Source: Geobacillus thermocatenulatus (lineage in GTDB: Bacteria > Bacillota > Bacilli > Bacillales > Anoxybacillaceae). Taken from it: a DNA stretch of 64,000 nt. Both the position numbers and the translations under genes were made by a program. Positions 24,308 through 44,737 of the stretch are shown here, piece by piece (positions within the stretch are counted from its first letter, which is position 1; each line of letters starts with the position of its first letter). The notes below the pieces were generated by a model, which saw only the letters and a list, made by a program, of their open reading frames with translations, had not been told where the DNA came from and did not search any database. The stretch is taken from assembly GCF_002217655.1 (NCBI RefSeq), contig NZ_NEWK01000001.1, positions 1,250,001-1,314,000 on the forward strand. The letters are read 5' to 3'.

Positions 24308-24772
24308 ATGGATGAGCGAGAATCGATTGTATTATCGTACCAGCATGCGTTTCGATTGTTGCTTCATTTGAAGAATGTCATTGCCGCGTCGGAACAAGTG
24401 GCGGAAGAGGATGAACTCTTGAGGGAAGTATACCGCGATTCGATTGTGAAAAAATACGAAATTTTGGAAGACCAAATCTAGAAGTTGCTATCGAGAATTT
24501 TCAAAGCGTCCGGTCTTGAATTGAACAACCCGCGGGCATGTTACCGCCAGGCGTTGAAAGAAGGATGGATCAAGAATATTGACGTATGGAACGATATATT
24601 GCACTCCCGCAATGCCACGGCTCATGTGTATAATGAAGACGATAATGAGCGGATCAAAAACCGAATTGCATCGGAATAATCGGAATATGTCCACGAAATC
24701 GAAGCGCTGCTCGAACATATCAAAAGAGAAGTGATCGACCGTGATGTATGGAATGAGCCCGACCGTGTTTGA
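24308..24772 (+). pseudogene. HEPN-domain (HI0074-like) gene, interrupted by two stop codons (copy 1)
   Basis: Frame from ATG 24308 (RBS AAAGGAG) to TGA 24770-24772 reads as one HEPN protein of the nucleotidyltransferase-substrate-binding type, but in-frame TAG at 24479-24481 and TAA at 24677-24679 break it. The HEPN motif region RNATAH is present (DILHSRNATAHVYNED). HEPN proteins of this class are RNases or antitoxin/toxin partners of the MNT nucleotidyltransferase encoded next. The pieces are all in one frame, so only two point changes are needed to restore the gene; decay looks recent. Confidence 0.85.
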
Positions 24773-25027
24773 CGGTTGATGGCGTATTTCGCGGGCGAAG
24801 AAAATATACAAAAAGTCGTTTTGTTCGGCTCGCGGGCGCGCGGCACGGCCCGCTACAACTCGGACATTGACTTGTGCATTGACTACACCGGAAAACAGAA
24901 GTGGAAAATCAAAGAGGATCTTGACGAGATTGTCGGCATTTACTCATGTGATGTGCTCTTTTTCGACGCGCTGAACGAAGCGATCCGGCGCGAAATCGAG
25001 CGCGACGGGAAGACGATTTATGAGAAA
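24731..25027 (+). repeat. 297-bp direct repeat, left copy
   Basis: Matches 41151-41448 with four differences only (one deletion and three substitutions). Covers the HEPN 3' end and nearly all of the MNT gene. Upstream of 24731 the two loci are still homologous but clearly more diverged, so similarity jumps at this point. The two copies bracket 16 kb of restriction/defence cargo in direct orientation. Confidence 0.93.
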
Positions 25028-25289: not shown

Positions 25290-27194
25290 ATGGTGTATGA
25301 AAGAGAATTATCTCATTTCATGGATCAGTTGCGCAGCGAGGCGAATATAAGCGTGATCGATTCTGTGCAGACGATTGCGTCGATTGCAAGCGTGAAATTT
25401 TTAGAACTGGATAAGGAGCGTTACAGTCTTCCAGACGAACTCTCTTTAGGGGCGATTTTAAAAGAAGGAGCTTTTTTGGCGGAGAAGGTAAAGGCAGTTT
25501 TAAATGAAATAGAAGCACATGTCCCTTTCCTAAAGGGAGTATATGAGCTTTCCGACTTGTTTGGCCGATTAAGCAACAATACATTATATCATTTGTTGTC
25601 GCGGATTCATTCTTTTGCATTCACGAAAGAGCAGTGGAAACAATGGATTGAATCGTTGTTTGTGTACGCAGGCAATATGGCCGATGTTGAAGGTGTAGAG
25701 CTGATCACGCCGGTTGGTGTTAATGAGCTGGGCATTCGCCTTTTAAATATGGAAGGAGGGGAGTTTTATGATGGTGTTTCAGGGCTGTCCGGCACGTTGT
25801 GCGCAGCAAGCGAATATGCACGGCGACATCATTGCGAAGTGGCGCTGTACGGTCAGGAAATCAACCAGCGAGCATGGGCGCTTGGAAAACTGCGTCTGTT
25901 ATTTCACGACCGGACCGATGCTCATTTAGCCAAAGGAGATACGCTTACCGAGCCTGCATTTGTAGAGGGAAACAAGTTGAAAAAGTTTGATTACATTATG
26001 ATGAATTTTCCGTTTGGCATGAGAATAAACAGCTATGAACAACTGATGAATGACCGTTATGATCGGTTTGTATACGGCCGATTGCCGCGAACGAGCGCTG
26101 ACATGGCTTTTATTTTGCACGCTCTCTCTTCGTTGAAGGAAAACGGAAAAGCGGTTCTTGTTGTCACAAACGGAATGCTGTTTAGAGGAGGGCCGGAGGC
26201 GGTGATCAGGGGGCATTTATTGTCTGCCGATTTGATTGAGTCCGTGATCGCTCTGCCATCATCTTTGCTTGATGGTGCAGCCATTCAGATCAACCTTCTT
26301 GTGCTGAATAAAAACAAAAGTGCAGAGAGGGAAGGAAATATTTTATTCATTAACGCGGAAAATTATTATGGCGAACGGAGAAGAGGCAGAAGATATTTGC
26401 GCCAAGAAGATATCGACCGGATTGTGGCCATATATCATGAAGGGCTGGAGATCGATGAAGTAAGCAAATTCGTATCCGTCCGGGAGATTGAAGAAGCGAA
26501 CCTTTTAAGCAACCGGTATTTGCAAAGCAGTGAATGGACGATCGAGCCGTATGGAAAAGTGAAGTTTTACCCTGATCACATAAAGAATTTGCCATGCGTA
26601 CAACCATTGAAACGGATCGGCACTTTCTACCGCGGCATCAATATCTCAGCCAAAGACGCGGAAATAGAGAATGGGCCATATAAAGTGATTAAGTTATCTG
26701 ACGTCCAAAATGGGGAGGTGTTGATCGACCAGCTCGCGTCTTATGAAATTACAAACAATGCCAAAATTGAATCATATCTTGTCCAAGAAGGCGATGTCAT
26801 TATATCGGTCCGGGGGGCGGGGATCAAAATAGCGGTCATCCCGCCGCATGAGGGGGATATACTGATTTCCCATAATTTTATTGGCATTCGTCCGCACCGC
26901 CATGTTGACCCATTTTACTTAAAGGTCTTCTTGGAAAGCCCTGTTGGGCAATATCTTCTTTTGAGCAAACAGGCAGGGACAAATGTCACGATTTTGAATA
27001 TGAAAGATTTGGAGAACATTCCGATTCCAGTGCGGCCGTTCGAAGAGCAGAAGGAAATCATCATGTCCTATCTCGAAGAACAAAAACATATTCAAGACAT
27101 GATGAAACAACTCGAGAAGCAACGTCTTGAATCGAGTTTAAAACTGTACGAAAAAATGGGAATTCGTTCGACGTTTACACTGATGCAATCGTAA
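25290..27194 (+). CDS. N6-adenine methylase fused to an HsdS-like recognition domain
   Basis: 634-residue DNA methyltransferase. N-terminal helical region (1-140), then a type I HsdM-like N6-MTase domain (about 145-390): SAM motif I is divergent (YDGVSGLSGTLCAA) and catalytic motif IV is NFPF (Asn239) rather than NPPF. The C-terminal part (about 430-625) resembles one half of an HsdS subunit, a target recognition domain followed by a helical conserved region (NIPIPVRPFEEQKEIIMSYL). One recognition domain per chain implies dimerisation. No adjacent nuclease is intact, so it may be an orphan methylase or the protective arm of the downstream helicase system. AT-rich like that system. RBS ATGAGGTGA. 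Confidence 0.85.
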   Translation: MVYERELSHFMDQLRSEANISVIDSVQTIASIASVKFLELDKERYSLPDELSLGAILKEGAFLAEKVKAVLNEIEAHVPFLKGVYELSDLFGRLSNNTLYHLLSRIHSFAFTKEQWKQWIESLFVYAGNMADVEGVELITPVGVNELGIRLLNMEGGEFYDGVSGLSGTLCAASEYARRHHCEVALYGQEINQRAWALGKLRLLFHDRTDAHLAKGDTLTEPAFVEGNKLKKFDYIMMNFPFGMRINSYEQLMNDRYDRFVYGRLPRTSADMAFILHALSSLKENGKAVLVVTNGMLFRGGPEAVIRGHLLSADLIESVIALPSSLLDGAAIQINLLVLNKNKSAEREGNILFINAENYYGERRRGRRYLRQEDIDRIVAIYHEGLEIDEVSKFVSVREIEEANLLSNRYLQSSEWTIEPYGKVKFYPDHIKNLPCVQPLKRIGTFYRGINISAKDAEIENGPYKVIKLSDVQNGEVLIDQLASYEITNNAKIESYLVQEGDVIISVRGAGIKIAVIPPHEGDILISHNFIGIRPHRHVDPFYLKVFLESPVGQYLLLSKQAGTNVTILNMKDLENIPIPVRPFEEQKEIIMSYLEEQKHIQDMMKQLEKQRLESSLKLYEKMGIRSTFTLMQS

Positions 27195-28138: not shown

Positions 28139-28315
28139 ACGGCCGCTCAAGATATCCAGAGTGATCAGGCTGACGATATCGCTGGTTCGGGTTTGGCGTT
28201 GGCGATCCACCGGAACCAGCCGGTCAATCAGCTGGGGGAGGCCAAGATCCTTGAAGATGGCGTTTATGATAGTCAAATAGGAACGTTCATCAATCGCACG
28301 AATGCGAACGTCCAT
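28139..28315 (-). mobile_element. 5' fragment of an IS1634/IS4-type transposase gene
   Basis: On the minus strand, 59 codons read MDVRIRAIDERSYLTIINAI and onward through LPQLIDRLVPVDRQRQ to SLITLDILSGR. This is the N-terminus typical of the IS1634-like (IS4 group) transposases common in Geobacillus; the frame then runs into hsdM sequence. Only the beginning of the IS survives, wedged between hsdM and hsdS. Its terminal inverted repeat should lie within 28316-28410 but was not identified. The family call is from memory. Confidence 0.75.
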
Positions 28316-28410
28316 GGTGTGGAAACTCCTTTGCTTTCCTTGTGCACCAAGGATCGATTCGGCATGGGGACGAAAAAATCCTCCCGATGTTGGTCGAGAG
28401 GGTGCGAAAT

Positions 28411-28557
28411 GTGAGTAATAAAGTAGAGAAATCCTTGGAAGAAAATGTGTCTCTTTCTGCTTTACGCGACACCCTTCTTCCCAAACTTATGTCCGGAGAA
28501 ATTCGTGTCGTTGACGCCGAACGGGAGGTGGAAGTGTGTTTACAGAAGAGCAGCTAG
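28411..28557 (+). pseudogene. hsdS: hsdS C-terminal remnant
   Basis: About 45 codons ending in the conserved HsdS tail (LSALRDTLLPKLMSGEIRV) and overlapping the hsdR start, as in intact hsdS-hsdR operons. Both target recognition domains are gone, replaced by the IS fragment. Confidence 0.85.
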
Positions 28558-30999
28558 AGCAAGCCGTCATTGAATATTTTCAAGAGCTCGGCTACCCATA
28601 TATGCCAGCGAAGGAGTTAAAGCGAGATAAAAAGGACGTTTTATTGCTTGACCGTTTGGAAGAAGCGTTAGTGAAATTGAATCCAGAAGTGCCTGTTGAG
28701 ATCATTCGCGAGGTGATGCGCAAAATCCACTATTTTGAAACGAATGACGTGCTTACAAACAACAAAATGTTTCATAAGTACTTAACAGAAGCGGTAGTAG
28801 TGCCTGAGCTTGTGAATGGAGAGACGGTTTACCATCATGTTCGACTCATCGATTGGGAAACGCCAGAAAACAACGATTTTCTCGTTGTCAACCAATTGGA
28901 AGTCATTGAAAAAGGACAGGAGAAAATTCCAGACATCGTGCTGTATGTCAAAGGTCTTCCCCTTGTTATTGCAGAGTTAAAAAGCACGTCACGCGAAGAA
29001 GTCGATATTGAGCGAGTGAATTTTTATGGCAAACACCATTACAAGCGGAAACGCGCAGCCATTTGAAAGAGTTGTTGGAACATCGGCAAACGGGCGGCAT
29101 CGTTTTTTCAACGATTCAAAAGTTTGAAGAAGAAACCGGCTTGCTTTCTGAACGGGAAAACATCATCGTGATGGTTGACGAAGCCCACCGCTCCCAATAC
29201 GGCGTTGATCCGAAATACGATATCGAAACGGGGGAGCAAAAGTACGGGACGTATATCGCATTTACAGGGACGCCGATTGAAACGACCGATCGATCGACGA
29301 CCGGCTTGTTTGGCGATGTCATTGATGTGTATGATATGACCCAAGCGGTGGAAGACGGGGCGACGGTCAAAATTTATTACGAATCTCGCTTGGCGAAAGT
29401 GAAATTGGACGAGAAGAAAATGAATGAAATTGACCAAGAATATTGGCGCATGCAAGTTCACGAAGGTGTCGGCGACTATATTATTGAACAAAGCCAAAAA
29501 AGCTTGAGCCGCATGGAGCAAATCATAGGCGACCAAGACCGAATTCGCGAAGTCGTCACGGACATTATCCACCATTACGAGGAGCGCGAACATCTTGTCA
29601 AAGGAAAAGCGATGATCGTTGCTTATTCGCGCAACACCGCGTTTGCAATGTATAAAGAGATCATGCGTCAACGTCCGGACTGGAAAGACAAAGTGAAAAT
29701 TGTCATGACCGAAAACAATCAGGATCCGGAGGAGCTCGCGAAGCTTGTCGGAAATAAACAAACGCGGAAACAGCGGGAAAAAGAATTTAAAGATGGCGAT
29801 CATCCGTTTAAAATCGTCATTGTTGTTGATATGTGGCTCACCGGTTTTGACGTGCCGGCGCTCGATACAATGTATATTGACAAGCCCATGAAGACGCATA
29901 ACTTGATGCAAGCGATCGCCCGCGTCAACCGCGTTTATCCGGGGAAAACAGGCGGATTGATTGTTGATTACATCGGCTTAAAGAAAAATTTAACGGAAGC
30001 GTTGCAAACGTATACGAAGCGCGACCAAGATAAAGTGCAAGAAAATACCCAAGCCCGCGACATCGCGTTAAACATCCTCGAAGTGTTGCACAATATGTTC
30101 CATTCGTTTGATTATCGCGCCTTTTTCGGTGATAGCGACACAAAGCGTTATGAAGTCATTCGCGACGGAGCAGAATTTGTGCAGCAAACGGAAAAAAGAA
30201 AATTGCTGTTTATGACGGAAACGAAAAAGCTGAAAGATGTTTATAAAATTTGCACCGGCTTGCTTTCGAAAGAACAAAAAGAGGAAATTTCCTATTTTAT
30301 CGCTGTTCGTTCCTTTATTATGAAATCTTCGCGAACAGGCACACCTGACTTAAAAGAAGTGAATGAACGAATCGCGAAAATGTTGGAAGAAGCGATTTTG
30401 GAAGATGAAGTGATGGTGTTGACCCAAGCGGTTTCATCGGAAAGTTTTGATTTGTTGAATGAGGAGAACATCAAAAAATGACGCGCCTTGCCGCAAAAAA
30501 ATATTGCGTCGACCATTTTAATGCGCGTATTAAAGCAAAAATTGCAAGATGTGAAAAAGACAAACATGACGGTGAGCCAAACATTTTCCAAACGTTTTGA
30601 AAAAATATTAGAAAAATACAACAATCGAAATGATTACACGGATGTGTATGAAGTATTTGAGGAATTGCTTAAATTTAAAGAAGAGTTGCAGGCGGCGATT
30701 GAAGAAGAGAAACAGCTTGGCTTAACCGAGGAGGAGAAGGCGTTTTTCGACGTGTTAGGTTCTGACCCGGATATAAAAAAATTAATGGAAGATGAGGTAT
30801 TAATTCAAATCGCAAAGGATTTGGCGAAAACGGTAAAGGAAAACCGGACGCACGATTGGGATAAAAAAGCGCAAGCCCAAGCGCGCATGCGCCTTGAAAT
30901 TAAGAAGGTGCTGCGCAAGTACGATTATCCACCAAATAACAGCCGAAAGCGGTGGAAGATGTGCTTGAGCAAGCGAAGCTGCAGTGCATGAATATGTAA
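28536..30999 (+). pseudogene. hsdR: hsdR, type I restriction subunit with deletion, stop and frameshift
   Basis: The N-terminal nuclease region (28536 to about 29025) retains the PD-ExK pattern in PDIVLYVKGLPLVIAELKS. A deletion near 29030-29060 removes the first helicase segment including Walker A. The reading then resumes in another frame at HLKELLEHRQTGGIVFSTIQ with DEAH (VMVDEAHRSQYG) and later helicase motifs (TGFDVPALDTMYID, QAIARVNRVYPG). An in-frame TGA at 30479-30481 and a frameshift near 30939 damage the C-terminus; the original end is probably the TAA at 30997-30999. Restriction is dead, consistent with the loss of hsdM and hsdS. Confidence 0.9.
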
Positions 31000-31143
31000 G
31001 GAGATCAATCGGTGCTTTGAGGAGAGACAGTTATGGAGAATATGCTGTCTCTCTCCGCGAAATTCATCGTTTTGTCAATAGTTTATTGAAGTGGTCAAGA
31101 TATAAAACAACATCCAGTCATTTTTGTAAGGGGTTCTGTTCAT
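31000..31143. other. Intergenic region before the helicase operon
   Basis: AT-rich 144 bp. It contains TTGTCA at about 31074 and TATAAA at about 31103, but their spacing is not that of a standard promoter, so the promoter of the four-gene operon cannot be fixed. RBS AAGGGG lies before the ATG at 31144. Confidence 0.4.
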
Positions 31144-32664
31144 ATGGAAAGAGCACTTAACCCGTTAGGACAACTTGTTCATGCGAAAAACGCACATAAG
31201 TATGGGGTTGTCTATACGTGTCCATGCTGTGGCGCGAGAGTATTTAAAGCAGAAGGAAGGGTGCAGTCCGCTCACTTTCGTCACGAACGCGGGCAAGGGT
31301 CTGAACGATGCGAACTTTATGTTCAACGTTTGTCAGGTTCATCCCATCTTCATGATTATTCAGTGATGATAAGCCGCCCCTTTATTACATTTGAACCATT
31401 GGAACATGAGTGGGAACTTTTTATTACCTTTCCTTATTTAACGCCTTTTCAAGCGATGCAATGTGACGCGCATCATTTGCACTTTAAAATAAAATGCAAT
31501 GAAATGAATTCCTTTATCTCATCTGCACAGCTTTGGCCTAACTCTAGTGAAAATAAACTGCAGATTGTTCCGAAACAGGGTTACAGTTTTTCTTTTGCGA
31601 CTAGAAAAGATGAAAAATGTTATGAGAAACTCGGCTTGTTTTGGCCTGAATATATTAAAGGGTTTCAAAACCATACATATTTGTTTCGGCCAATAAACCA
31701 AAGCTTTTGCATGATTGAGCCTAGAGAACTATCACTGAGTGATACGTTTTATATGATGTCACGAAAAAAAATAGAGTTTCCGAGGGAAATGGATGTAACA
31801 CCATTAAATCAAAAGTATGGATGGTTTGCCTATAAAATCCGTCTTCCTTTTCTATTGGCGGAGCCGTTAATAGAGTGGTTTCGGCAATTTGGATATGACT
31901 TGAAACCGCCGTATTATTATTTGGATATAGTTGCCCCTTCAATTTTTGGCAGAAAAGGAGAAGCGATGTTAATCGGAACAGGAAAATGTAGAATCCAAAT
32001 ATCTTTTCGTGACTTTCAACCGCAAAAGTACAGCCTAGTTCATATCCAACCGGATTATACGAGTCGGGAATATCCGCTGTCGAGTTCTTATGTTGACATT
32101 ATATTGCATAAAAAAGGTTTTCATACTTTTTATATTAAAAAACATGAAGGAAAGATGTTACATCTATTTTATGATCCAAACGCGAACCCATATTTTTCGG
32201 AACGATTGGAATCCGGGGTTGTGGTTGACCAGCGGACATTGGCGCTGTGTGAGGAAAAAAGCATCTTGAAATACACAACGGTTTCGGTAACAGATCCTCT
32301 TTTGTTTCCTTACTGGATCAAAGAAAAAAATCGGTTTGCCAGAGAGCTCAGTCAAGGGGGAGAGTTTTTTCATCCATCTGTTGAGAAGCTTTTTATTCCT
32401 GGGGTTTGGGCGTTTGACTTTTCTGCTCAAGAGATGTGCGATTTAGCCCATCCCGATTGGCGCAAAGTTTTATTGGCGTATATGCAGCTTGAGCAAACAA
32501 AGTGTTGTTGGATTTCAAATGAACAATATCGTTTTCTAGAGTTTTTGTTGCAAGATGTAGGGGATAAAATGTTGCGGGCAAAACTAGCCTACTATGTAAA
32601 GACGTATCGAAACAAGGTTCCAAAAATAGTAAAGGAATTTATTGATGGGAGGAGATCGTCGTGA
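31144..32664 (+). CDS. Druantia-like operon gene 1: zinc-ribbon protein with CoiA-like N-terminus
   Basis: 506-residue protein, function unknown. The N-terminus carries a zinc-binding motif like that of competence protein CoiA: CPCCG at residues 26-30 and HFRH at 44-47 (C-x2-C ... H-x2-H). The rest is an AT-rich-coded mixed alpha/beta protein without nuclease, ATPase or membrane signatures that I can recognise. First gene of a compact four-gene operon: its TGA overlaps the GTG start of the next gene. By position and size it could correspond to DruB of Druantia-type systems; this rests on layout, not on sequence comparison. Confidence 0.75.
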   Translation: MERALNPLGQLVHAKNAHKYGVVYTCPCCGARVFKAEGRVQSAHFRHERGQGSERCELYVQRLSGSSHLHDYSVMISRPFITFEPLEHEWELFITFPYLTPFQAMQCDAHHLHFKIKCNEMNSFISSAQLWPNSSENKLQIVPKQGYSFSFATRKDEKCYEKLGLFWPEYIKGFQNHTYLFRPINQSFCMIEPRELSLSDTFYMMSRKKIEFPREMDVTPLNQKYGWFAYKIRLPFLLAEPLIEWFRQFGYDLKPPYYYLDIVAPSIFGRKGEAMLIGTGKCRIQISFRDFQPQKYSLVHIQPDYTSREYPLSSSYVDIILHKKGFHTFYIKKHEGKMLHLFYDPNANPYFSERLESGVVVDQRTLALCEEKSILKYTTVSVTDPLLFPYWIKEKNRFARELSQGGEFFHPSVEKLFIPGVWAFDFSAQEMCDLAHPDWRKVLLAYMQLEQTKCCWISNEQYRFLEFLLQDVGDKMLRAKLAYYVKTYRNKVPKIVKEFIDGRRSS

Positions 32665-34643
32665 AGACGATATTTGGGATTGTCGAAAAAGAAAGAAAGC
32701 CAAATAAAAAATACGTGTTTGTTAAAGTTTTAGCGGAATATCGCGATCACCAGTTAATCGAGGTTCAGGAAGCACGATTGCATTATCCAAGTGAGGGGGA
32801 AGTGATATGGTCTCCTGCTCCTGAAGACATTCACGCAGGGAAAGTGGGATTTTATACAGTTGAAGAAAGAAATGAGGAAGAATACACAGGAAGACCTGTA
32901 TATTCAAAATTTATCGTAAGAAAAGAATTGGAGAATTTAAAATATTATGAGGTATTCCCAATACCGTTTTCACTTGCGCAAAATCATGACATTGTTTATT
33001 TGATTCAGAACGGGTTTGATGCTCCGCAGCGGTTTAGTTCAGAAATTTTACTCTTAACGAACGATGATTATTTAGTTGGACCTTGCCGTGTCAAACAGAC
33101 AAAAGAACAAAAATGGGTGATTGATTCTTCCGAGGATAAGTTGCTCGAAATAAGAAAAAAAGGGATGCATCTCGTTAAATATAATGATAAGAATGTCGGA
33201 ATCGAACGATACTTTGTATCGACGATGCTAGCGAGCCCTGTCGAAGATTATCTCGATTGTGCCACTAACGATCGGATTATGCGTTATGCTTTAAAAACGT
33301 TGAAAGACCAGCAACAGGTTCAGGAAATTTCACGAAAAGTCATCAGTCAGCTATCTGAGTTGGTTAGCGATCTCCCTCCGCAAGTTCGTTATGAGCGCAT
33401 TATGCGAGCCATTGAATTGTTGGATAAATATCAAATAACAAAGGAAGATATTGGTCAATTTGAGGAGGAATTATTACAGTACCCAGTGATTCAAAGGAAA
33501 ATAGAGGAAAAATTAGAGGGAAGGTTTGCTGCGGAGAAAGCAAGAATCGAAGATGAGCATCGAAAAGTATTGAACGAAACAGAACAGCTGCGTAGAAAAA
33601 AAGAGCATTTGCTCGTTGAGATGGAAGAAATCGGAAGGTGGATAAAAGAAAGGGAAGAAAGACTAAAAAAAGCCGATAAGGCATTGGAATTAAAGATCAA
33701 GGAAATGAAAGATAATATTTTCCACACTTTGGTTGATTTACTGCCTTTCACGAATTTGGGGTTAAATGTCCCTGTACATAACGCATCAGACGATCGAAAT
33801 CATTCGGAATGGGTGGTGAAGGATGTTGATGAAACAACAGTTTATTATGAAGATATAAATCATTTAATGACATCCATTGCAGAAAACCTATGCATGATTG
33901 GCATGCAGGAGAATAAAGCATGGTTGACAGCGAAAACGATCATCGGAGCGATTTTGTTTCGTAAACCAGTCGTGGTCAAAGGAGAATTTAGTTTTGAACT
34001 GTCACAGGCAATCGGCTGGGCGGTTGCAGGAAACGATCATCTAACGGTTTTTCCAGATATACGGAATTTTACTAATAAAACGCTGATCAATTCCTTTTCT
34101 TGTTATACACGGCCTGACTGTGTAAAGTCTCTTCATTTATGCCAAATTGAAAATTCGCCTGCTGAATTGTATTTACAATCGTTTCTCGACCATTGGCGCG
34201 TGTCTATTGATGAGTCGTTGCCGGAATTGATTTTGATAAGCATAAAAGAAGAAAGTGAGTTGACCGATTCGTTCATCCAAAAGTTGTCGTTTTCGCCTGT
34301 GATCAGCGCAAATGAAATGATAACAACTCCTGATATTCGGTTACTAAGAAAGACGCATCGTCTAGTCTTTGGATCCATCCCTGCTCGATTACTTGTAGAA
34401 GGTAAAATATTAAAGGAAAAATCTAGTGAGTTCAATAATTTTGTGGAAATTGTGCAAGAAGTCATGTCGTTTACGAAACAAAAAGAAGCATTTAAAAAAT
34501 GGTTTCGGTTATTAGAGGATGAACGGTTTGAGGAAGAAGCCGTGTCTGTATGGGTTGTCAAGGTGCTACTGCAGCCGTATGTTGACCGTGAGCAGGCAAA
34601 GAAAATCTTAGAAGAGTTTGACAGCGAGAATATTTTGATTTAG
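32661..34643 (+). CDS. Druantia-like operon gene 2: coiled-coil protein with degenerate ATPase-like C-terminus
   Basis: 660 residues from GTG 32661 (RBS GGGAGGAG; GTGA overlap with gene 1). A mixed N-terminal domain (1-250) precedes a highly charged coiled coil at about 266-353 (for example RFAAEKARIEDEHRKVLNET). The C-terminal third has the feel of an AAA+ fold: KPVVVKGEFSFELSQAIGWA sits where a P-loop would be, but the lysine-containing Walker A is absent. Hence it is probably a structural or sensing subunit rather than an active ATPase. Position and length are compatible with DruC. No family recognised directly. Confidence 0.75.
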   Translation: MKTIFGIVEKERKPNKKYVFVKVLAEYRDHQLIEVQEARLHYPSEGEVIWSPAPEDIHAGKVGFYTVEERNEEEYTGRPVYSKFIVRKELENLKYYEVFPIPFSLAQNHDIVYLIQNGFDAPQRFSSEILLLTNDDYLVGPCRVKQTKEQKWVIDSSEDKLLEIRKKGMHLVKYNDKNVGIERYFVSTMLASPVEDYLDCATNDRIMRYALKTLKDQQQVQEISRKVISQLSELVSDLPPQVRYERIMRAIELLDKYQITKEDIGQFEEELLQYPVIQRKIEEKLEGRFAAEKARIEDEHRKVLNETEQLRRKKEHLLVEMEEIGRWIKEREERLKKADKALELKIKEMKDNIFHTLVDLLPFTNLGLNVPVHNASDDRNHSEWVVKDVDETTVYYEDINHLMTSIAENLCMIGMQENKAWLTAKTIIGAILFRKPVVVKGEFSFELSQAIGWAVAGNDHLTVFPDIRNFTNKTLINSFSCYTRPDCVKSLHLCQIENSPAELYLQSFLDHWRVSIDESLPELILISIKEESELTDSFIQKLSFSPVISANEMITTPDIRLLRKTHRLVFGSIPARLLVEGKILKEKSSEFNNFVEIVQEVMSFTKQKEAFKKWFRLLEDERFEEEAVSVWVVKVLLQPYVDREQAKKILEEFDSENILI

Positions 34644-34664
34644 TAAGGGGGTGGAGCTCGAGAG

Positions 34665-35618
34665 ATGTTGATAGATGCATGGGAGAATATAATTATACAA
34701 TTCAGACAAATAAAACGTCATGTCCTTTCTTTGGTGCACTTTTATGCATTCGAGGACTATAAAATGAACCCGGTGCATTTTCAGCGGCTTATCCCGCCTT
34801 TGCAAAGATTGCTAAAGGGGCGCTTTTTTGAAGATCTTCGAAACGTTATGAAAGAAGAAGATCAAACCGAAGCACAGTCATTGCTCGAACTGTTATCTGG
34901 TTTGGGGGAAATATTGAAGCTTGCCAATGGATATTATTTGCCGTTGCCCCCGCGCTGTGTCGAACTTCCCGTGTCTAAAAGCTTGGTTGTGCTCAGCAAC
35001 CCTGAAGGAAAGAGCGACAGGTATTACGGGTGCGGCAACGGTTATATGGAAGAGGGCAGTCATGTTCCAACGTTGATGATTGACGAATGGATGACTTCAC
35101 CGACTGTAAATGAATTTATCGAAACACTCAAATTGCAGAACCCAGTAAAACTAAACGATGAACCAACAGAACTATTTTTGCCTCAAAAACGGCGCAAATG
35201 GCACCCATTTCAAATGAATCTTGCATCAAAGTCTGATTGTTATATTGCTAGGTATGCATTAAAAAACAGTCAACCGCTCTACTTTTGGGTTGAGAACATG
35301 GGGAGGGGTGATGCGCGTTATTACAAGATACCCGAATATTATTTAGAAACGGCTAAGTATGCCTTAGAGTATAAGGCTCAGGTGAAAACAACGATAAAGT
35401 GTGCAAAAATTCGTGAAGATATTATTTATGTCCGTCTTTTTAAAAAGTTTCCTGTGTTTGAACAAAAGATGGCGATGCTTTTTTGTTTCCCGCTTTCCTT
35501 TATCAAACCGATTGAGTGGATTGTGCCTTTGTGGCATTATTCAGATTTTATTTGGGTTTTGCGGCGCTTGGGGATTGATGAGGATTCAATACGATGGGAA
35601 GGAGTCGAAATGGGATGA
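34665..35618 (+). CDS. Druantia-like operon gene 3: unknown protein
   Basis: 317 residues, start ATG 34665 with RBS GGGGGTGGAG. No motif recognised: helical N-terminus, then a beta-rich middle (SLVVLSNPEGKSDRYYGCGN), no membrane helix, no conserved metal ligands apparent. Its TGA overlaps the ATG of the giant helicase gene (ATGA), so the two products are probably made in concert and may interact. Position and length are compatible with DruD. Confidence 0.7.
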   Translation: MLIDAWENIIIQFRQIKRHVLSLVHFYAFEDYKMNPVHFQRLIPPLQRLLKGRFFEDLRNVMKEEDQTEAQSLLELLSGLGEILKLANGYYLPLPPRCVELPVSKSLVVLSNPEGKSDRYYGCGNGYMEEGSHVPTLMIDEWMTSPTVNEFIETLKLQNPVKLNDEPTELFLPQKRRKWHPFQMNLASKSDCYIARYALKNSQPLYFWVENMGRGDARYYKIPEYYLETAKYALEYKAQVKTTIKCAKIREDIIYVRLFKKFPVFEQKMAMLFCFPLSFIKPIEWIVPLWHYSDFIWVLRRLGIDEDSIRWEGVEMG

Positions 35619-38600
35619 TGGAATTTACCATTAACTCCGTTTCTGCACGGCTGCATCAAAAATTGCGCGAATATATTGAAGCTCAATATCCAATCAGCCA
35701 TCCCTCTTTGCTGTTAGAGCGCAGAGAGTTATTGGATTCACCAGGGGTCATTTCGAAGGAGCCTTATATTGAGGCCACTCCTGTTTATGAGCTGGGGCCT
35801 GCCTACGAGCAGATGAATTTACCTGCTCATTGTAAAGAAGCAATGACTTATTTTTCGGAGTTGTCTCCTAGTGTAGGAATTTATAAGAGGCCGTACGTCC
35901 ATCAGCAGGAGGCGCTTGAATCATTTTTAGTGGATGGACATGATTTAGTTGTAGCGACTGGAACCGGCTCAGGTAAAACGGAATCATTCTTACATCCCAT
36001 TTTAAACTCATTAATTGATGAAGGATTTAATAGAAGGGAACAGTTTCAAATACATGCGGTTCGGGCGTTAATACTATATCCGATGAATGCGCTAGTCAGC
36101 GATCAAATCACAAGATTGCGCCAGCTTTTTGGTGATGAGAGAGTGTCCAAGTACTTTCGGGATCATTTCGGCCGTCATCCATTATTCGGTATGTACACAT
36201 CAAGAACACCTTACCCGGGAGAGCGGACAAAGGAAAAAGACGACTACCAGTTGAAGGAGATTATTGATTATTATTTGGATATTGAAAAGAATCGGCCGCA
36301 ACTGGCGCTGGAAATGAAAAAAAGAGGGAAATGGATAGCGAAAAATTTAACAAACTTTCGTTCAGGCAAAAAAGGCGACTGGAAATCTCGATATTTGACC
36401 TCTCCTGACGACCGGGAATTGTTTACTAGACACGAGATGCAAACGACTCCCCCGGATATTTTGGTAACGAACTATTCCATGCTGGAGTATATGTTGATGC
36501 GCCCGATTGAGCGGCCAATTTGGGAGAAAACAAGACAATGGCTTGCAGAAGATGAAGCGAACACATTGATTCTAGTGCTTGATGAGGCGCATATGTACCG
36601 AGGAACGAGTGGTGCAGAGGTGGCTCTACTCATTAGAAGGTTGCAGGCAAGATTAGGAATTACACGCGATCGATTGCGCTGCATTCTAACGAGTGCAAGT
36701 TTGGGCGCGGAGGATGATAATTCTGCGGCTATTGAGTTTGCTGAACAATTAACGGGCAAACTGAAAAAACGTTCGTTTAAGTTGATCAAAGGAGTGAAAG
36801 AAAAAAGAAAGTCCGGAAGAATTGGCACGACAGAAGAGGCCTATGCATTCGCCTTGCTAGACAGCGAGCAGTTTACCAATCGCATTCATCAGTACGATAC
36901 ATTGCGGTCGAATCTCCAGGCTGTAGCAAAGCGGCTTGGATGGGGAGATGTCCCACATAATTTAGATGAGCTGCCGTCGTATTTATATAAAAGCTTAGAC
37001 GGATTTGGACCGCTCGAATTAATTATTGAACAAATAAGCGGAAATGCTAAAAAGTTCAGCGATATTGCCAAGTTAGTATTTCCAAGTGTCGATATGAAAA
37101 TGGCCCAAAAAGCGACAAGCCATTTATTAATGTTGGCCAATGCAGCGAAAAATAATGAGCGAGTGCTATTGCCGGTAAGGATCCATTTATTCTTTAAAGG
37201 TGTATCAGGCATTTATGTTTGCACCAATCCGAAATGTGAGGAAAAAAGAGTAAAAGGAAACGATTCGATTTTAGGAAAAATGTATGATTCTCCGAAATTA
37301 CAATGTACTTGCAGCAAGGAAGCAAGGGTCTACGAATTGCTTACCCATCGAAAATGTGGAACTGCATTTATTCGAGGGTATATATCGAAAAAGGACGGCA
37401 ACTACTTATGGGCTGAAAAAGGGAAAGGCATTGTTGGCGAGGAGTTGACAGAGATTCACTTGCTGGTTGAACCGCCCCATGAAAAAATACAAAAAGGAGA
37501 ACGATCGGTGCGCCCTGTATGGCTCGATATCAGGACGGGATACTTAATGAAGTCGCCGCCGGAAGATCCTGAAGGTTATCTAAAATTGTATTTGCCTCAT
37601 GATGAGGCAAATAAGAACAAAAAGAAAAAGCAAACAATTACATTCCAAAAATGTCCGTGCTGTATGAGAAAAGTGCAGGGAACGATTACAGACTTAAAAA
37701 CAAAAGGTGAGCAGCCTTTTGCTAATTTAGTTCGCGAGCAATTTTTATTGCAACCTCCGGTAAAGCTGAATAAACAATTGCCTAATGAGGGACGGAAAGT
37801 GCTGCTGTTTTCTGACGGACGCCAAAAGGCTGCACGTCTTGCTAGGGATATTCCCCATGAAGTAGAGCTTGACTCTTTTAGACAGTCCATTTTATTGGCG
37901 GCTCAAAAATTAATTGATCAAGATATTGAACCGAAACTGAGCGGCGCTTTATATTGTTCGTTGCTGCAAGTGATTGATGAGCATAAATTATACTTTTTTG
38001 AAGGACAGGATCGAAAATCGTTGGCCTATCATGTTCAAATTTTACATGAGGATTTTGATGGCGACTATGAGGAGCTGATTGAAAACGGCGACATTGAACT
38101 GCTGCCTCGTTTCAAAACAGAACTTCTTCGCCAGCTTTGCCATCCACTCTACTCTGTTTATACAACGGCCACAGGCTACGTAGAGCCTGTTAAAAGAGAA
38201 ATGGCAAGAGTAGAAAGAAAGCTAAAAGAGATATTGTCGAAAGAAGACATTTATGTACTGACTATGCTGTTTATTCAAGAAATGCTGGATAGAGTGGCCA
38301 TAGATTCAACCATTCATTTCTATGAGAGGCTGAAGATTAGAGGGTTCGGGGGCGATGATTGGGGAGTTGAGAAAGGTTATATACCGAAAAACTTAGAGAA
38401 TATCATTCATCTTTATGTTCAAAGTGAGGAGCATAAGAAGGAAATTGTCGATGCATTGTTTAAATTGTGTACAGAATCGGAAGGGAGATATTATTTATCC
38501 CCTAGAAAATTAAAACTGATTCCCGGCATTTATACAACTTGGTATAAATGCAATGATTGCAAAGAAATGAATATCGTTGCAGCAAAAAACAAATGTGTGA

Positions 38601-40975
38601 ATTGTTTATCGGAAAATATCGAGATATTAGACGTGAACAGTAAACGGTTAGATTCAGAAAAAGGATTTTGGCGTTCACCTATACAAAAAATATTGACAAA
38701 CCATGAGAAAATTTCGAACGTCACCGTTGAAGAGCATACCGCTCAACTGTCGCAAAAGGATGCGAAAATAGCGATCGCAACAACAGAAGAGTACGAATTG
38801 CGGTTCCAAGATATCATATTAGATGTTTTAGAAGGACCTGTCGATATTTTAAGCTGTACAACCACAATGGAAGTTGGCGTCGACATCGGTTCACTGACTG
38901 CCGTTGGACTACGAAATGTTCCGCCACAACGTGAGAACTACCAGCAGCGTGCGGGACGTGCTGGACGGAGGGGAACGGCTTTATCGACCGTAGTTACTTA
39001 TGCCCAGGGAGGGCCGCACGATTATTATTATTTTCAACAGCCTGAAAAAATGATCAGCGGTTCGGCTCGCAAACCCATTGTTTATATTGATAATAAAAAA
39101 ATCACCAAAAGGCATTTGAACGCATTTCTCATTCAAACGTATTTTCATGAAAACGTTTCTACAAGTGCCGTTGCGTCAAGCATTCTCAGCAGTTCGTTAG
39201 GTGATACAAAATCATTTTTTGAAGGTGCTCCGCCTTTTAATTATGAGCAGTTTAAAAAATGGCTGAATGACAATATCGCCTGTCGTTTTCGCGACTATCC
39301 GGTGATTTTTGACTTGATTCCGGATGAGGTTGTTTCGACAGAAGGAATATTAGGCGGGGATATGGTAGAACGAAAATGGTATATTGTTGAGGAAGCATGT
39401 AATGAGCTAGTAAGCGAGTTGGAACGGAATTATGAGAAAGTCAAACATACAATACAACCCATCGATGGTGACGATATAGCGGAAGTAAATCCGAACGATA
39501 AATTTCTCGATTTTTTGTTCAATCACGGCTTGCTTCCAACCTATGCATTTCCACAAGATTTATGCAGTTTTTACATCGAAGGGAAGGATGAAAGAACGGG
39601 GAGAATAATCGTTAAACAACGACCGCAATTGGAGATAAATAGAGCGTTGAGCGAGTATGCGCCAGGAAGACAAATTGTTGTTGATAAGAAAACATATCGA
39701 ATAGGGGGAATTTATGTACCTAATCCACACGATCCGTTAAAACCGGCTAAAGATTTGTTGCTTGACAGTTTGCCGGTTATCACCTATTGTGAATCGTGCT
39801 TATTTGTTTCTTTGGATCCAATCCAAACGAAAAAATGTTCAGTGTGTGGTGGTGAGTTGAAAAACAGTCCGTTGTTGCGACCAACGGGGTTTTCGCCTGA
39901 GAAAGGGATGGAGGTGAAGGAAGGAGATAGGGAACAGGAATTCACCTATGCAGTTCCTCCTCAGTTACCTATTCCTGTGTCTGGCGAAAAACTAAGTTTG
40001 AAGGCTTATTCAGGTTCAGAGCGGCTTCAATATGCTAATGAGATGAACAAACAGCTTATCGTCATGAATAAAGGGACGGATCGACAGGAAGGATTCGAAA
40101 TCTGCACGGATTGTGGGGCTATTTGGCCAGCAGGGGAGAGTGAACATAAATTGACCCATGATGTACCTTACAGGTTGAAAACACATCTTGGTCAAAGGGA
40201 TAGCCGCTGTAGAGGAAGTATTATGAAAGTGTTTCTTGGAAATATATTTAACTCTGATTTATTACTATTGCGGATGAGTTTTGATGAAAAAGTCGATTTT
40301 CACCCGAATCATCAATGGGTTCATGACGGTTTGAAGACGATTGGCGAGGCGCTCGTATTGGCTGCAAGCCGGGTATTGGACATCGATTATAATGAGTTAC
40401 TGTCTGGATATCGCATTCTTCCATTAGAGACAAAAAGTCCACAACATCTGTATCAAGCTGATGTTTACCTGTTTGATACTTTATCCGGAGGAGCGGGGTA
40501 TTCACACATTGCAGGGGAAATGCTCCCTGATATTATTAAAATGGCAAGGGAAATTTTGTATGAATGCGAAAACCATTGCGAGACATCTTGTTATAAATGC
40601 TTAAGACATTACTCCAATCAATTTTATCATCATCAGTTAAATCGTTTTGTCGCCCTAGAGTTGCTTGATTATATCGTTAAAGGTGAATTGAAGACATTAA
40701 CATTAACGGAACAACAAAAAGTGTTGGCCCCCATTAAGCGCATGTTAGAAATACACAATGAAAAATTCGAGGAATTCGAAGAAGGGGGACGATATCTCAT
40801 TAAAGTCAAATCGAAAGGGAATCGCTTAATTGGCGCAAAAAATAATATAGAAAGAATGTTGGTATGCGCATACAGCCAGCCTGCTATTGCGTATGTTTCG
40901 GCTTATGAAGTTTTGCATGATTTGCCCAATGTATATTTAAATGTTGTAGAAGGCAAACAACAGTTGCTCGTTTGA
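35615..40975 (+). CDS. Giant DEAH helicase with DUF1998-like C-terminus (DruE-like)
   Basis: 1786 residues from ATG 35615 (ATGA overlap; RBS GGAAGGAG). Superfamily 2 helicase: Walker A ATGTGSGKTE at about residue 115-125, Walker B/DEAH in LILVLDEAHMYRG at about 322, TSASLGA motif, and motif VI QQRAGRAGRRG at about 1110-1120. Several Cys pairs form zinc-binding sites (CTNPKC, CPCCMRK, CNDCKE, CESC, CSVCGG, CTDCG). The C-terminus has the DUF1998 pattern CENHCETSCYKCLRHYSNQ followed by HHQLNRFVALELL (about 1650-1685). This architecture is that of DruE of Druantia defence, and more distantly DISARM DrmA/B. All motifs are intact and the frame is unbroken. Confidence 0.9.
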   Translation: MMEFTINSVSARLHQKLREYIEAQYPISHPSLLLERRELLDSPGVISKEPYIEATPVYELGPAYEQMNLPAHCKEAMTYFSELSPSVGIYKRPYVHQQEALESFLVDGHDLVVATGTGSGKTESFLHPILNSLIDEGFNRREQFQIHAVRALILYPMNALVSDQITRLRQLFGDERVSKYFRDHFGRHPLFGMYTSRTPYPGERTKEKDDYQLKEIIDYYLDIEKNRPQLALEMKKRGKWIAKNLTNFRSGKKGDWKSRYLTSPDDRELFTRHEMQTTPPDILVTNYSMLEYMLMRPIERPIWEKTRQWLAEDEANTLILVLDEAHMYRGTSGAEVALLIRRLQARLGITRDRLRCILTSASLGAEDDNSAAIEFAEQLTGKLKKRSFKLIKGVKEKRKSGRIGTTEEAYAFALLDSEQFTNRIHQYDTLRSNLQAVAKRLGWGDVPHNLDELPSYLYKSLDGFGPLELIIEQISGNAKKFSDIAKLVFPSVDMKMAQKATSHLLMLANAAKNNERVLLPVRIHLFFKGVSGIYVCTNPKCEEKRVKGNDSILGKMYDSPKLQCTCSKEARVYELLTHRKCGTAFIRGYISKKDGNYLWAEKGKGIVGEELTEIHLLVEPPHEKIQKGERSVRPVWLDIRTGYLMKSPPEDPEGYLKLYLPHDEANKNKKKKQTITFQKCPCCMRKVQGTITDLKTKGEQPFANLVREQFLLQPPVKLNKQLPNEGRKVLLFSDGRQKAARLARDIPHEVELDSFRQSILLAAQKLIDQDIEPKLSGALYCSLLQVIDEHKLYFFEGQDRKSLAYHVQILHEDFDGDYEELIENGDIELLPRFKTELLRQLCHPLYSVYTTATGYVEPVKREMARVERKLKEILSKEDIYVLTMLFIQEMLDRVAIDSTIHFYERLKIRGFGGDDWGVEKGYIPKNLENIIHLYVQSEEHKKEIVDALFKLCTESEGRYYLSPRKLKLIPGIYTTWYKCNDCKEMNIVAAKNKCVNCLSENIEILDVNSKRLDSEKGFWRSPIQKILTNHEKISNVTVEEHTAQLSQKDAKIAIATTEEYELRFQDIILDVLEGPVDILSCTTTMEVGVDIGSLTAVGLRNVPPQRENYQQRAGRAGRRGTALSTVVTYAQGGPHDYYYFQQPEKMISGSARKPIVYIDNKKITKRHLNAFLIQTYFHENVSTSAVASSILSSSLGDTKSFFEGAPPFNYEQFKKWLNDNIACRFRDYPVIFDLIPDEVVSTEGILGGDMVERKWYIVEEACNELVSELERNYEKVKHTIQPIDGDDIAEVNPNDKFLDFLFNHGLLPTYAFPQDLCSFYIEGKDERTGRIIVKQRPQLEINRALSEYAPGRQIVVDKKTYRIGGIYVPNPHDPLKPAKDLLLDSLPVITYCESCLFVSLDPIQTKKCSVCGGELKNSPLLRPTGFSPEKGMEVKEGDREQEFTYAVPPQLPIPVSGEKLSLKAYSGSERLQYANEMNKQLIVMNKGTDRQEGFEICTDCGAIWPAGESEHKLTHDVPYRLKTHLGQRDSRCRGSIMKVFLGNIFNSDLLLLRMSFDEKVDFHPNHQWVHDGLKTIGEALVLAASRVLDIDYNELLSGYRILPLETKSPQHLYQADVYLFDTLSGGAGYSHIAGEMLPDIIKMAREILYECENHCETSCYKCLRHYSNQFYHHQLNRFVALELLDYIVKGELKTLTLTEQQKVLAPIKRMLEIHNEKFEEFEEGGRYLIKVKSKGNRLIGAKNNIERMLVCAYSQPAIAYVSAYEVLHDLPNVYLNVVEGKQQLLV

Positions 40976-41008
40976 GGATGGTTAGAATCAATGCTAATCG
41001 CTCAAAAA

Positions 41009-41192
41009 GAGGAATGGATTTATTTACTCAATTCGCGCAACGCCACGGCCCATGTGTATAACGAGGAAGACTATGAACAGATTAAAAACCGAAATTGTAT
41101 CACAATATGTCCACAAAATCGAAGCGCTGCTGCAAAACATCAAAGAAGAAGTGATCGACCGTGATGTATGGAATGAGCCCGACCGTGTTTGA
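41009..41192 (+). pseudogene. HEPN gene 3' fragment (copy 2), frameshifted
   Basis: Reads WIYLLNSRNATAHVYNEEDY, then a one-base insertion near CGAAATTGTA (about 41091) shifts to the frame giving SQYVHKIEALLQNIKEEV and DRDVWNEPDRV, ending in TGA 41190-41192. Homologous to, but diverged from, the corresponding part of copy 1 at 24587-24772. The N-terminal two thirds are absent. Confidence 0.8.
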
Positions 41193-41448
41193 ACGGTTGA
41201 TGGCGTATTTCGCGGGCGAAGAAAATATACAAAAAGTCATTTTGTTCGGCTCGCGGGCGCGCGGCACGGCCCGCTACAACTCGGACATTGACTTGTGCAT
41301 TGACTACACCGGAAAACAGAAGTGGAAAATCAAAGAGGATCTTGACGAGATTGTCGGCATTTACTCATGTGATGTGCTCTTTTTCGACGCGCTGAACGAA
41401 GCGATCCGGTGCGAAATCGAGCGCGACGGGAAGACGATTGATGAGAAA
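41151..41448 (+). repeat. 297-bp direct repeat, right copy
   Basis: Partner of 24731-25027 in direct orientation; see that entry. It contains one more base than the left copy, so the MNT frame is intact here. Confidence 0.93.
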
Positions 41449-41583: not shown

Positions 41584-41837
41584 TCGTTTACCAAAACTCC
41601 CGTCCAATCAAAATGGCGGCGATCACAATGCCCGCCCCCAGCCACATCATGGGGAGAAGGAGGGACAGCGAATCCGCCGGCGCTTGAAACAAAAACAGAT
41701 GCGGCCACGGTCGTTTACCAAAACTCCCGTCCAATCAAAATGGCGGCGATCACAATGCCCGCCCCCAGCCACATCATGGGGAGAAGGAGGGACAGCGAAT
41801 CCGCCGGCGCTTGAAACAAAAACAGATGCGGCCACGG
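41584..41837. repeat. Perfect 127-bp tandem duplication
   Basis: 41584-41710 and 41711-41837 are identical, base for base (both run TCGTTTACCAAAACTC ... GCGGCCACGG). The right copy is the 3' end of the permease gene on the minus strand, including its stop; the left copy is a spare 3' end outside the gene. Perfect identity indicates a very recent slippage or unequal-exchange event, or an assembly artefact. Confidence 0.97.
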
Positions 41838-44644: not shown

Positions 44645-44737
44645 GTGCAACGTGCTTTTTTCGATGCGCTGAACGAAGAGATCAGGCTCGAAATTGAACG
44701 CGATGGGAAAACGATCTATGAGAAAGCCTGCTCATGA
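44645..44737 (+). pseudogene. MNT nucleotidyltransferase C-terminal fragment (copy 3)
   Basis: Thirty codons, reading FFDALNEEIRLEIERDGK and ending EKACS, match the last quarter of the MNT proteins at 24741-25039 and 41164-41460 with visible divergence. A GTG with an upstream AGGGAG could permit translation but the catalytic part is absent. A good terminator follows, then yqjA, so this is probably the original 3' end of the resident locus. Confidence 0.85.

Follow-up and report, generated by a model that had tools for sequence, protein, structure and literature searches.

Type I Druantia has been described as a five-gene system with DruA, a protein that belongs to the published definition of the type (PMC13316683), and the nuclease domain of the type I DruE has been predicted to be inactive (PMC12458937). 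For type III (DruH-DruE), the helicase DruE is presented as recognising DNA structure and its partner as sensing the trigger (PMC13192584, PMC13316683), a role proposed for a partner carrying an immunoglobulin (Ig)-like domain (PMC13192584). In type II Druantia and type IV CoCoNuT, a coiled-coil protein with an inactivated McrB-like nucleoside triphosphatase (NTPase) domain stands beside the DruE helicase, and ARMADA and DISARM are reported to pair a YprA-family helicase with a PglX-like methylase (both PMC12458937); further papers were considered alongside these (PMC8565338, PMC7251935, PMC11090510). No account of the type I mechanism was found in the literature searched, and no type I Druantia lacking DruA was described in the titles and abstract openings listed (for two of the searches the first 20 of 282 and 12 of 119), supplements being outside the search. 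Here we analyse an operon of Geobacillus thermocatenulatus, druB-druC-druD-druE, that lies in a stretch of 64,000 nucleotides (the window; C1:1250001-1314000 of a 3.56 Mb genome). We favour, with some reserve, the reading that these genes, on an island whose chromosomal site is variable, form an intact type I Druantia of a DruA-less Bacillota lineage and act by the mechanism outlined below.

The DruBCDE operon and related systems

The operon consists of four consecutive plus-strand genes, all open and intact:

31144..32664, plus strand: DruB, 506 codons; PADLOC DruB1 (PDLC00004), 999.7 bits, profile positions 1-504 of 504
32661..34643, plus strand: DruC, 660 codons; PADLOC DruC1 (PDLC00007), 1266.8 bits, profile positions 1-659 of 659
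34665..35618, plus strand: DruD, 317 codons; PADLOC DruD1 (PDLC00011), 625.3 bits, profile positions 1-316 of 316
35594..40975 (likely start 35615), plus strand: DruE, YprA-family DEAH helicase with zinc-binding domain; PADLOC DruE1 (PDLC00013), 2261 bits, profile positions 2-1773 of 1776

Judged by their sequences, these genes are the DruB, DruC, DruD and DruE of Druantia type I without druA. The original prediction had put this identity forward as a possibility, and it is borne out by the PADLOC Druantia profiles, which were matched over nearly their whole lengths (1000, 1267, 625 and 2261 bits) with no DruA being found. The helicase, for which a non-defence family had been considered, scores best with DruE1, ahead of DruE2 (693 bits) and DruE3 (557 bits). 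The order druB-druC-druD upstream of druE is that of type I, whose DruA is missing. NCBIfam gave no name to genes 1-3 and only matches below cut-off to gene 4. The near-perfect fit to single PADLOC models suggests that these models were built from such sequences, in which case parts of the DruA-less lineage are already in PADLOC. The operon is therefore better placed in the Druantia I lineage itself, as a DruA-less Bacillota clade, than as the undescribed Druantia relative that had also been envisaged.

The genes had been described as overlapping; their lengths and intactness stand, and druB and druC do overlap by 4 nucleotides (nt), but druC and druD are separated by 21 nt. For druE, the first in-frame ATG (35594) gives 1793 residues and the start at 35615 gives the 1786 residues first reported; the later start is favoured because conservation in a three-sequence DruE alignment sets in at residue 9. 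The open frames and the base composition confirm the intact, AT-rich patch first described, with 39-42% guanine plus cytosine in the operon stretch and mostly 49-61% in the flanks outside the island. Among the relatives fetched, the nearest named ones are Geobacillus icigianus and G. jurassicus (98-99% for DruE).

Compared with Druantia type I (DruABCDE), the operon has the same DruB, DruC, DruD and DruE in the same order and lacks DruA. It has a DruE-family helicase and a partner with an Ig-like domain in common with type III and is without DruH, for which genes 1-3 gave no PADLOC match; identity between the window DruE and a homologue on an E. coli plasmid, assigned to type III by its neighbours, is 24.6%. 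The type II gene set, DruMFG, differs from druBCD, and genes 1-3 matched no DruM, DruF or DruG profile in PADLOC, only DruB1, DruC1 and DruD1 with one weak LeoBC match; DruC resembles the type II and type IV CoCoNuT partner in domain build, with a coiled coil and an inactivated NTPase. A YprA-family helicase is common to the operon and to DISARM and ARMADA. Unlike in those systems, however, no methylase family is kept beside druBCDE across the clade; genes 1-3 had no DrmB or DrmC match in PADLOC, and the best DrmA match, 53.6 bits, fell on helicase parts of gene 4 (among the best 25 of 40 rows).

Absence of DruA across a Bacillota clade

A DruA elsewhere in the genome had been named as something to look for, and PF14236 (DruA) gave 0 matches in the window's own genome. 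Since 14 standing controls were also silent there, the search was repeated over 53 genomes or records (that of L079 not included), among them seven chosen positive controls, all of which were matched (7/7). There were 0 matches in the 37 DruA-less Bacillota genome entries searched whole (13 from Bacilli and 24 from the Clostridia group; 36 distinct, as G001 and G410 look like one assembly), and 0/6 among the other DruA-less entries (Chloroflexota, Thiotrichaceae and Nocardia, some of them metagenome-assembled genomes). The genomes of loci L040, L043 and L044 do carry DruA, outside the fetched stretch. In the Alicyclobacillus genome of L036, four open reading frames with a DruA domain, of 303 codons each and with identical scores, are scattered over G450:C1, as if this domain also travelled in a mobile element.

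Scanning the GTDB species genomes with the three-DruE alignment gave 544 relatives, of which the best 80 were compared, the gene content of their loci being scored with home-built profiles. DruA lies within the fetched stretch in 32 of these loci and is missing from it in 48, namely 39 from Bacillota and nine others, three of which have DruA further off. The 39 Bacillota loci divide into nine from Bacilli and 30 from a mostly clostridial group (including one Paenibacillus); the Bacillota loci with DruA (L036, L038 and L056) all fall outside the DruA-less clade. Within the genus DruB occurs in 4/14 genomes, and an even sample of the class gave a DruB match at E 0.001 in 7/398, four of which cover most of DruB.

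In a midpoint-rooted DruE tree of 83 rows (L013-L016, L018, L023, L026 and L102 omitted as duplicates, pieces or, in one case, an odd sequence), the DruA label changes eight times, compared with 26.5 times in shuffles; as L040, L043 and L044 are still labelled DruA-less in both trees, change counts are upper values. The second tree was rooted with two distant DruE sequences, with 16 more near-copies, pieces and long branches taken out and five rows added. In it the 31 DruA-less Bacillota rows form a single clade (support 86), and the basal rows carry DruA (Meiothermus L115, Leisingera L023, Paracoccus L114, and haloarchaea and ANME). With DruA basal and one DruA-less Bacillota clade, we read the tree as pointing to a single loss of DruA in the Bacillota lineage; there may instead have been two losses. 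The basal rows L023, L114 and L115 sit on plasmids, L023 being adjoined by annotated ATP-binding proteins and a NERD nuclease, and are maybe an unclassified Druantia type. Other arrangements were seen in the haloarchaeal loci L021, L072 and L073, where DruA is divergent from the operon, the DruD-type gene has about 610 residues and no separate DruC is matched, and in L037, L062 and L063, where the order is permuted and DruA comes after DruE, followed by DruB (L037) or DruB-DruC (L063).

Selection and domain architecture

The druBCDE genes are under purifying selection. The ratio of nonsynonymous to synonymous substitution rates (dN/dS) relative to G. icigianus is 0.216 for DruB, 0.153 for DruC, 0.200 for DruD and 0.079 for DruE, a range of 0.08-0.22 that agrees with the original suggestion of selection behind the intact frames; relative to Anoxybacillus it is 0.153, 0.131, 0.120 and 0.046, at a dS of 1.3-2.1, which is near saturation. 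Compared with Sporosarcina L029, DruE is 51% identical and DruB, DruC and DruD 23%; within DruB the zinc head is 41% identical and the remaining parts 10-27%.

The AlphaFold2 model of DruB (predicted local distance difference test, pLDDT, 75; predicted template-modelling score, pTM, 0.56) and VIA-align comparisons give a zinc N-terminus of CoiA-like type, then beta domains, one of them Ig-like (about 256-346), and a helical C-terminus. The CoiA-like zinc motif first noticed holds as far as the zinc residues go, C26, C29, H47 and C56 each being kept in 60/61 rows; the match to Pfam CoiA_N, at 18.1 bits, stays under the cut-off of 26.3. A CoiA-like nuclease was considered for DruB and set aside, with no nuclease titles among the 50 Foldseek and 50 VIA matches listed, which hardly tested the head and linker. 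A few of the fold matches are to INTAC complex chains of unspecified subunit. Sequence searches for solved relatives of DruB and DruD returned none above chance, and for DruC nothing above chance but coiled-coil matches (among the best 60 of 371).

DruC combines N-terminal beta domains, a coiled coil (about 275-359) and an AAA+-like domain from about 393; the pTM of its AlphaFold2 model is 0.46, and fold comparison supports the AAA+ fold. Tested as a McrB-like AAA+ protein, it has the fold and lacks Walker A, a motif scan finding GxxxxGK[ST] in 0/60 rows. Model, fold comparison and scan agree with the coiled coil and P-loop-less ATPase-like domain first proposed. In L071, L074-L076, L081, L082 and L088-L090, and likewise in L092-L096 and L098-L100 (Clostridia-group loci), DruC has 895-985 residues compared with the usual ~650, with no above-cut-off Pfam match in the three long Clostridia-group proteins scanned. 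For DruE, Pfam recognises DEAD, Helicase_C and the MZB zinc domain (PF09369), and GTGSGKT, DEAH and QRxGRxGR are present in 83/83 rows, so that of the first description the DEAH helicase and the zinc part stand and the DUF1998-like C-terminus is unmatched.

Restriction-modification genes near druB

Upstream of the operon the window carries a methylase gene and the remains of a type I restriction-modification (R-M) system:

25290..27194, plus strand: N6 DNA methylase with one specificity domain, intact; PF02384, 195.6 bits, and PF01420, 37.9 bits
27358..28280, plus strand: broken HsdM of the type I R-M; a 266-codon remnant matches the HsdM profile (497 residues in L014)
28273..28554, plus strand: HsdS remnant, 94-codon match (429 residues in L014)
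28536..30991, plus strand: HsdR in three pieces, three open reading frames matching the HsdR profile (1003 residues in L014)

Pfam matched HSDR_N, SWI2_SNF2 and T1RH-like_C on two of the three HsdR pieces. The decayed defence genes first seen around the operon are thus confirmed in this R-M, in pieces here and open in the sister genomes G002 and G005, where it ends ~150 bp before druB (G005; G002 alike). Three HsdR fragments are all that G. icigianus retains of the R-M, with the methylase-specificity fusion and DruBCDE intact, and in Anoxybacillus L025 the C-terminal part of HsdR lies 120 bp before druB; a type I R-M precedes druB in the Geobacillus and Anoxybacillus part of the clade. The fusion accompanies druBCDE in four Geobacillus genomes (window, L013, L014 and L016/L024), where it stays intact even beside broken R-M. 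The co-occurrence that the original prediction wished to see surveyed goes no further, since the fusion is missing from the fetched flanks of other Bacilli (L019, L025, L027-L032), and outside Geobacillus its profile matches only L080 and L087, more weakly and downstream of the operon. The proposal that this methylase replaces DruA was accordingly rejected: its close relatives are confined to Geobacillus, and in two genomes an open type I R-M lies between it and druB. Upstream genes in other DruA-less loci are unrelated (SLH protein, Gabija, photolyase, WYL regulator, Rep protein).

In 11/30 Clostridia-group loci (L071, L074-L076, L078, L079, L084, L085, L087, L088 and L092) a C5 methylase and/or a nuclease stands before druB, both in nine. 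The methylase occurs in ten and the nuclease in ten (EcoO109I-type in six, Eco47II-type in four), L076 having the nuclease alone, at a contig edge, and L092 the methylase alone; the nearer R-M gene ends about 40 nt or less from where druB starts. We take these nucleases to have recognition sequences of the GGNCC kind. The Clostridia form is also carried by two IMG/VR contigs, L126 and L127 (2/16 IMG/VR loci), with the same six-gene order and one with each nuclease; the source organisms of L126 and L071 may be of one kind. None of the 36 loci with DruA has a C5 methylase, HsdM, HsdR or an EcoO109I/Eco47II-type nuclease by the home-built profiles, which take in some R-M families. In a Pfam comparison of co-directional upstream genes, from which four DruA-bearing and 15 DruA-less loci were omitted (near-copies, pieces, non-Bacillota), 61 proteins from 29/33 DruA-less Bacillota loci included nine C5 methylases, five and three nucleases, one N6 methylase, one HsdR tail, three GmrSD and four ResIII (among the best 25 of 79 families); 32 proteins from 21/28 DruA-bearing loci included one ResIII and no DNA methylase or type I/II R-M (among the best 25 of 42 families).

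The island and its mobility

Direct repeats of 349 nt, from a gene that is presumably an MNT-like nucleotidyltransferase, lie on either side of the island:

24679..25027, plus strand: nucleotidyltransferase remnant, left repeat arm (256 nt at 99% and 94 nt at 90%)
41099..41448, plus strand: nucleotidyltransferase repeat, right copy, 16.42 kb from the left copy

Ten genomes of the genus are free of DruB, and the site was fetched in eight of them. In 7/8 no more than about 2.3 kb separates the flanks, four of these sites having a single repeat copy, and G010 has a different insert of nearly 12 kb at the same site. The single copy at 4/8 sites suggests that the island is exchanged by recombination between nucleotidyltransferase repeat copies. 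The operon had no near DNA match among plasmids, and a search with the window's DruD as sole query found no DruD relatives in viral contigs. A third nucleotidyltransferase-like piece was seen by eye near 44650, and a perfect 127-nt tandem duplication (41584-41837) directly follows the island.

Alternative explanations

A DruA of a different sequence family, encoded elsewhere in the genome, might complete the system. DruA does lie several kb off or on another contig in L039, L068, L040 and L043, so distance alone proves nothing; yet PF14236 picks up divergent two-part DruAs and is silent in all 37 DruA-less Bacillota entries, and no gene family within 10 kb is common to more than 11/46 loci compared, which leaves this explanation very improbable. 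We give marginally less credence still to a decaying leftover, in which druA was lost recently and the remainder no longer works. The neighbouring R-M genes are indeed broken, and the published definition of type I includes DruA (PMC13316683), but the frames are open, as far as contigs reach, in four Geobacillus genomes and in distant genera, dN/dS is 0.05-0.22, and DruA is missing clade-wide. Several points nevertheless weigh against the operon being a working DruA-less type I Druantia of the kind proposed. Promoter-like sites in 30900-41200 are at chance level (23 versus 25.0 expected); the clade support of 86 is under the 95 mark, and midpoint rooting sets two DruA-less Bacillota groups apart, with a weak support of 57. 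As to the early history, the home-built profiles found no DruB, DruC or DruD in L114, L115 and L023, which have DruA and DruE. The models of DruB and DruC are of medium confidence (pTM 0.56 and 0.46), the Ig-like match of DruB is generic, DruD may hold an unseen nuclease, the rapid divergence of DruB-D could stem from a loosening of constraint instead of an arms race, and the mechanism is argued by analogy with type III.

A more serious competitor, if still an unlikely one, makes the DruA-less operon one unit with an R-M in druA's place, the R-M cutting or nicking phage DNA and DruBCDE processing the ends, or methylation marking self. It would account for the R-M genes near druB in the Clostridia-group and IMG/VR loci, for the open type I R-M of G005 and G002 and the HsdR tail of L025, and for the lack of these families in the 36 loci with DruA. 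However, 19/30 Clostridia-group loci are without such upstream R-M (some contigs end early), as are the Caryophanaceae loci; the type I R-M of L080 is downstream rather than upstream, and in L035, a non-Bacillota DruA-less operon, a C5 methylase is downstream on the opposite strand. DruBCDE is intact next to a ruined type I R-M both in the window and in G. icigianus, and is hence independent of that R-M; moreover, the profiles used take in only some R-M families, and defence genes form island clusters in any case. We are somewhat more doubtful of the further-reaching idea that Druantia I shed DruA in Bacillota and became a restriction-coupled system, with a methylase and an exchangeable nuclease before druB whose cleavage would feed ends to a nuclease-free DruBCDE. 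The R-M association in part of the clade deserves a test.

Proposed mechanism and significance

If the operon is an intact DruA-less type I Druantia, as we prefer to think, the models for types III and II, applied to type I, would make DruB the sensor, DruC the scaffold, DruD the adaptor and DruE the motor, roles that we infer by analogy. DruE, like its type III homologue, would load at single-stranded/duplex junctions of replicating phage DNA and then translocate, licensed by DruB, whose conserved zinc head and fast-changing Ig-like body may sense a phage protein or structure. DruC, with its coiled coil and inactive AAA+-like domain, would assemble the complex and DruD would couple it to DruE, DruA being dispensable in this lineage. 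Since the type I DruE nuclease is called inactive in published work, and neither DruB nor DruC has a recognised nuclease, the system probably blocks or unwinds phage DNA, or passes it to other nucleases, of the host or of a neighbouring R-M.

These roles, a P-loop-less AAA+-like scaffold for DruC and a candidate Ig-like sensor for DruB, would be testable for proteins listed as of unknown function, and would connect type I with the logic put forward for types II and III. The nucleases that replace one another before druB would offer a direct test of whether Druantia acts on restriction-made DNA ends. A large natural clade without DruA indicates that DruA need not belong to the minimal machine, and the four-gene unit would be smaller to reconstitute than the five-gene Druantia I.
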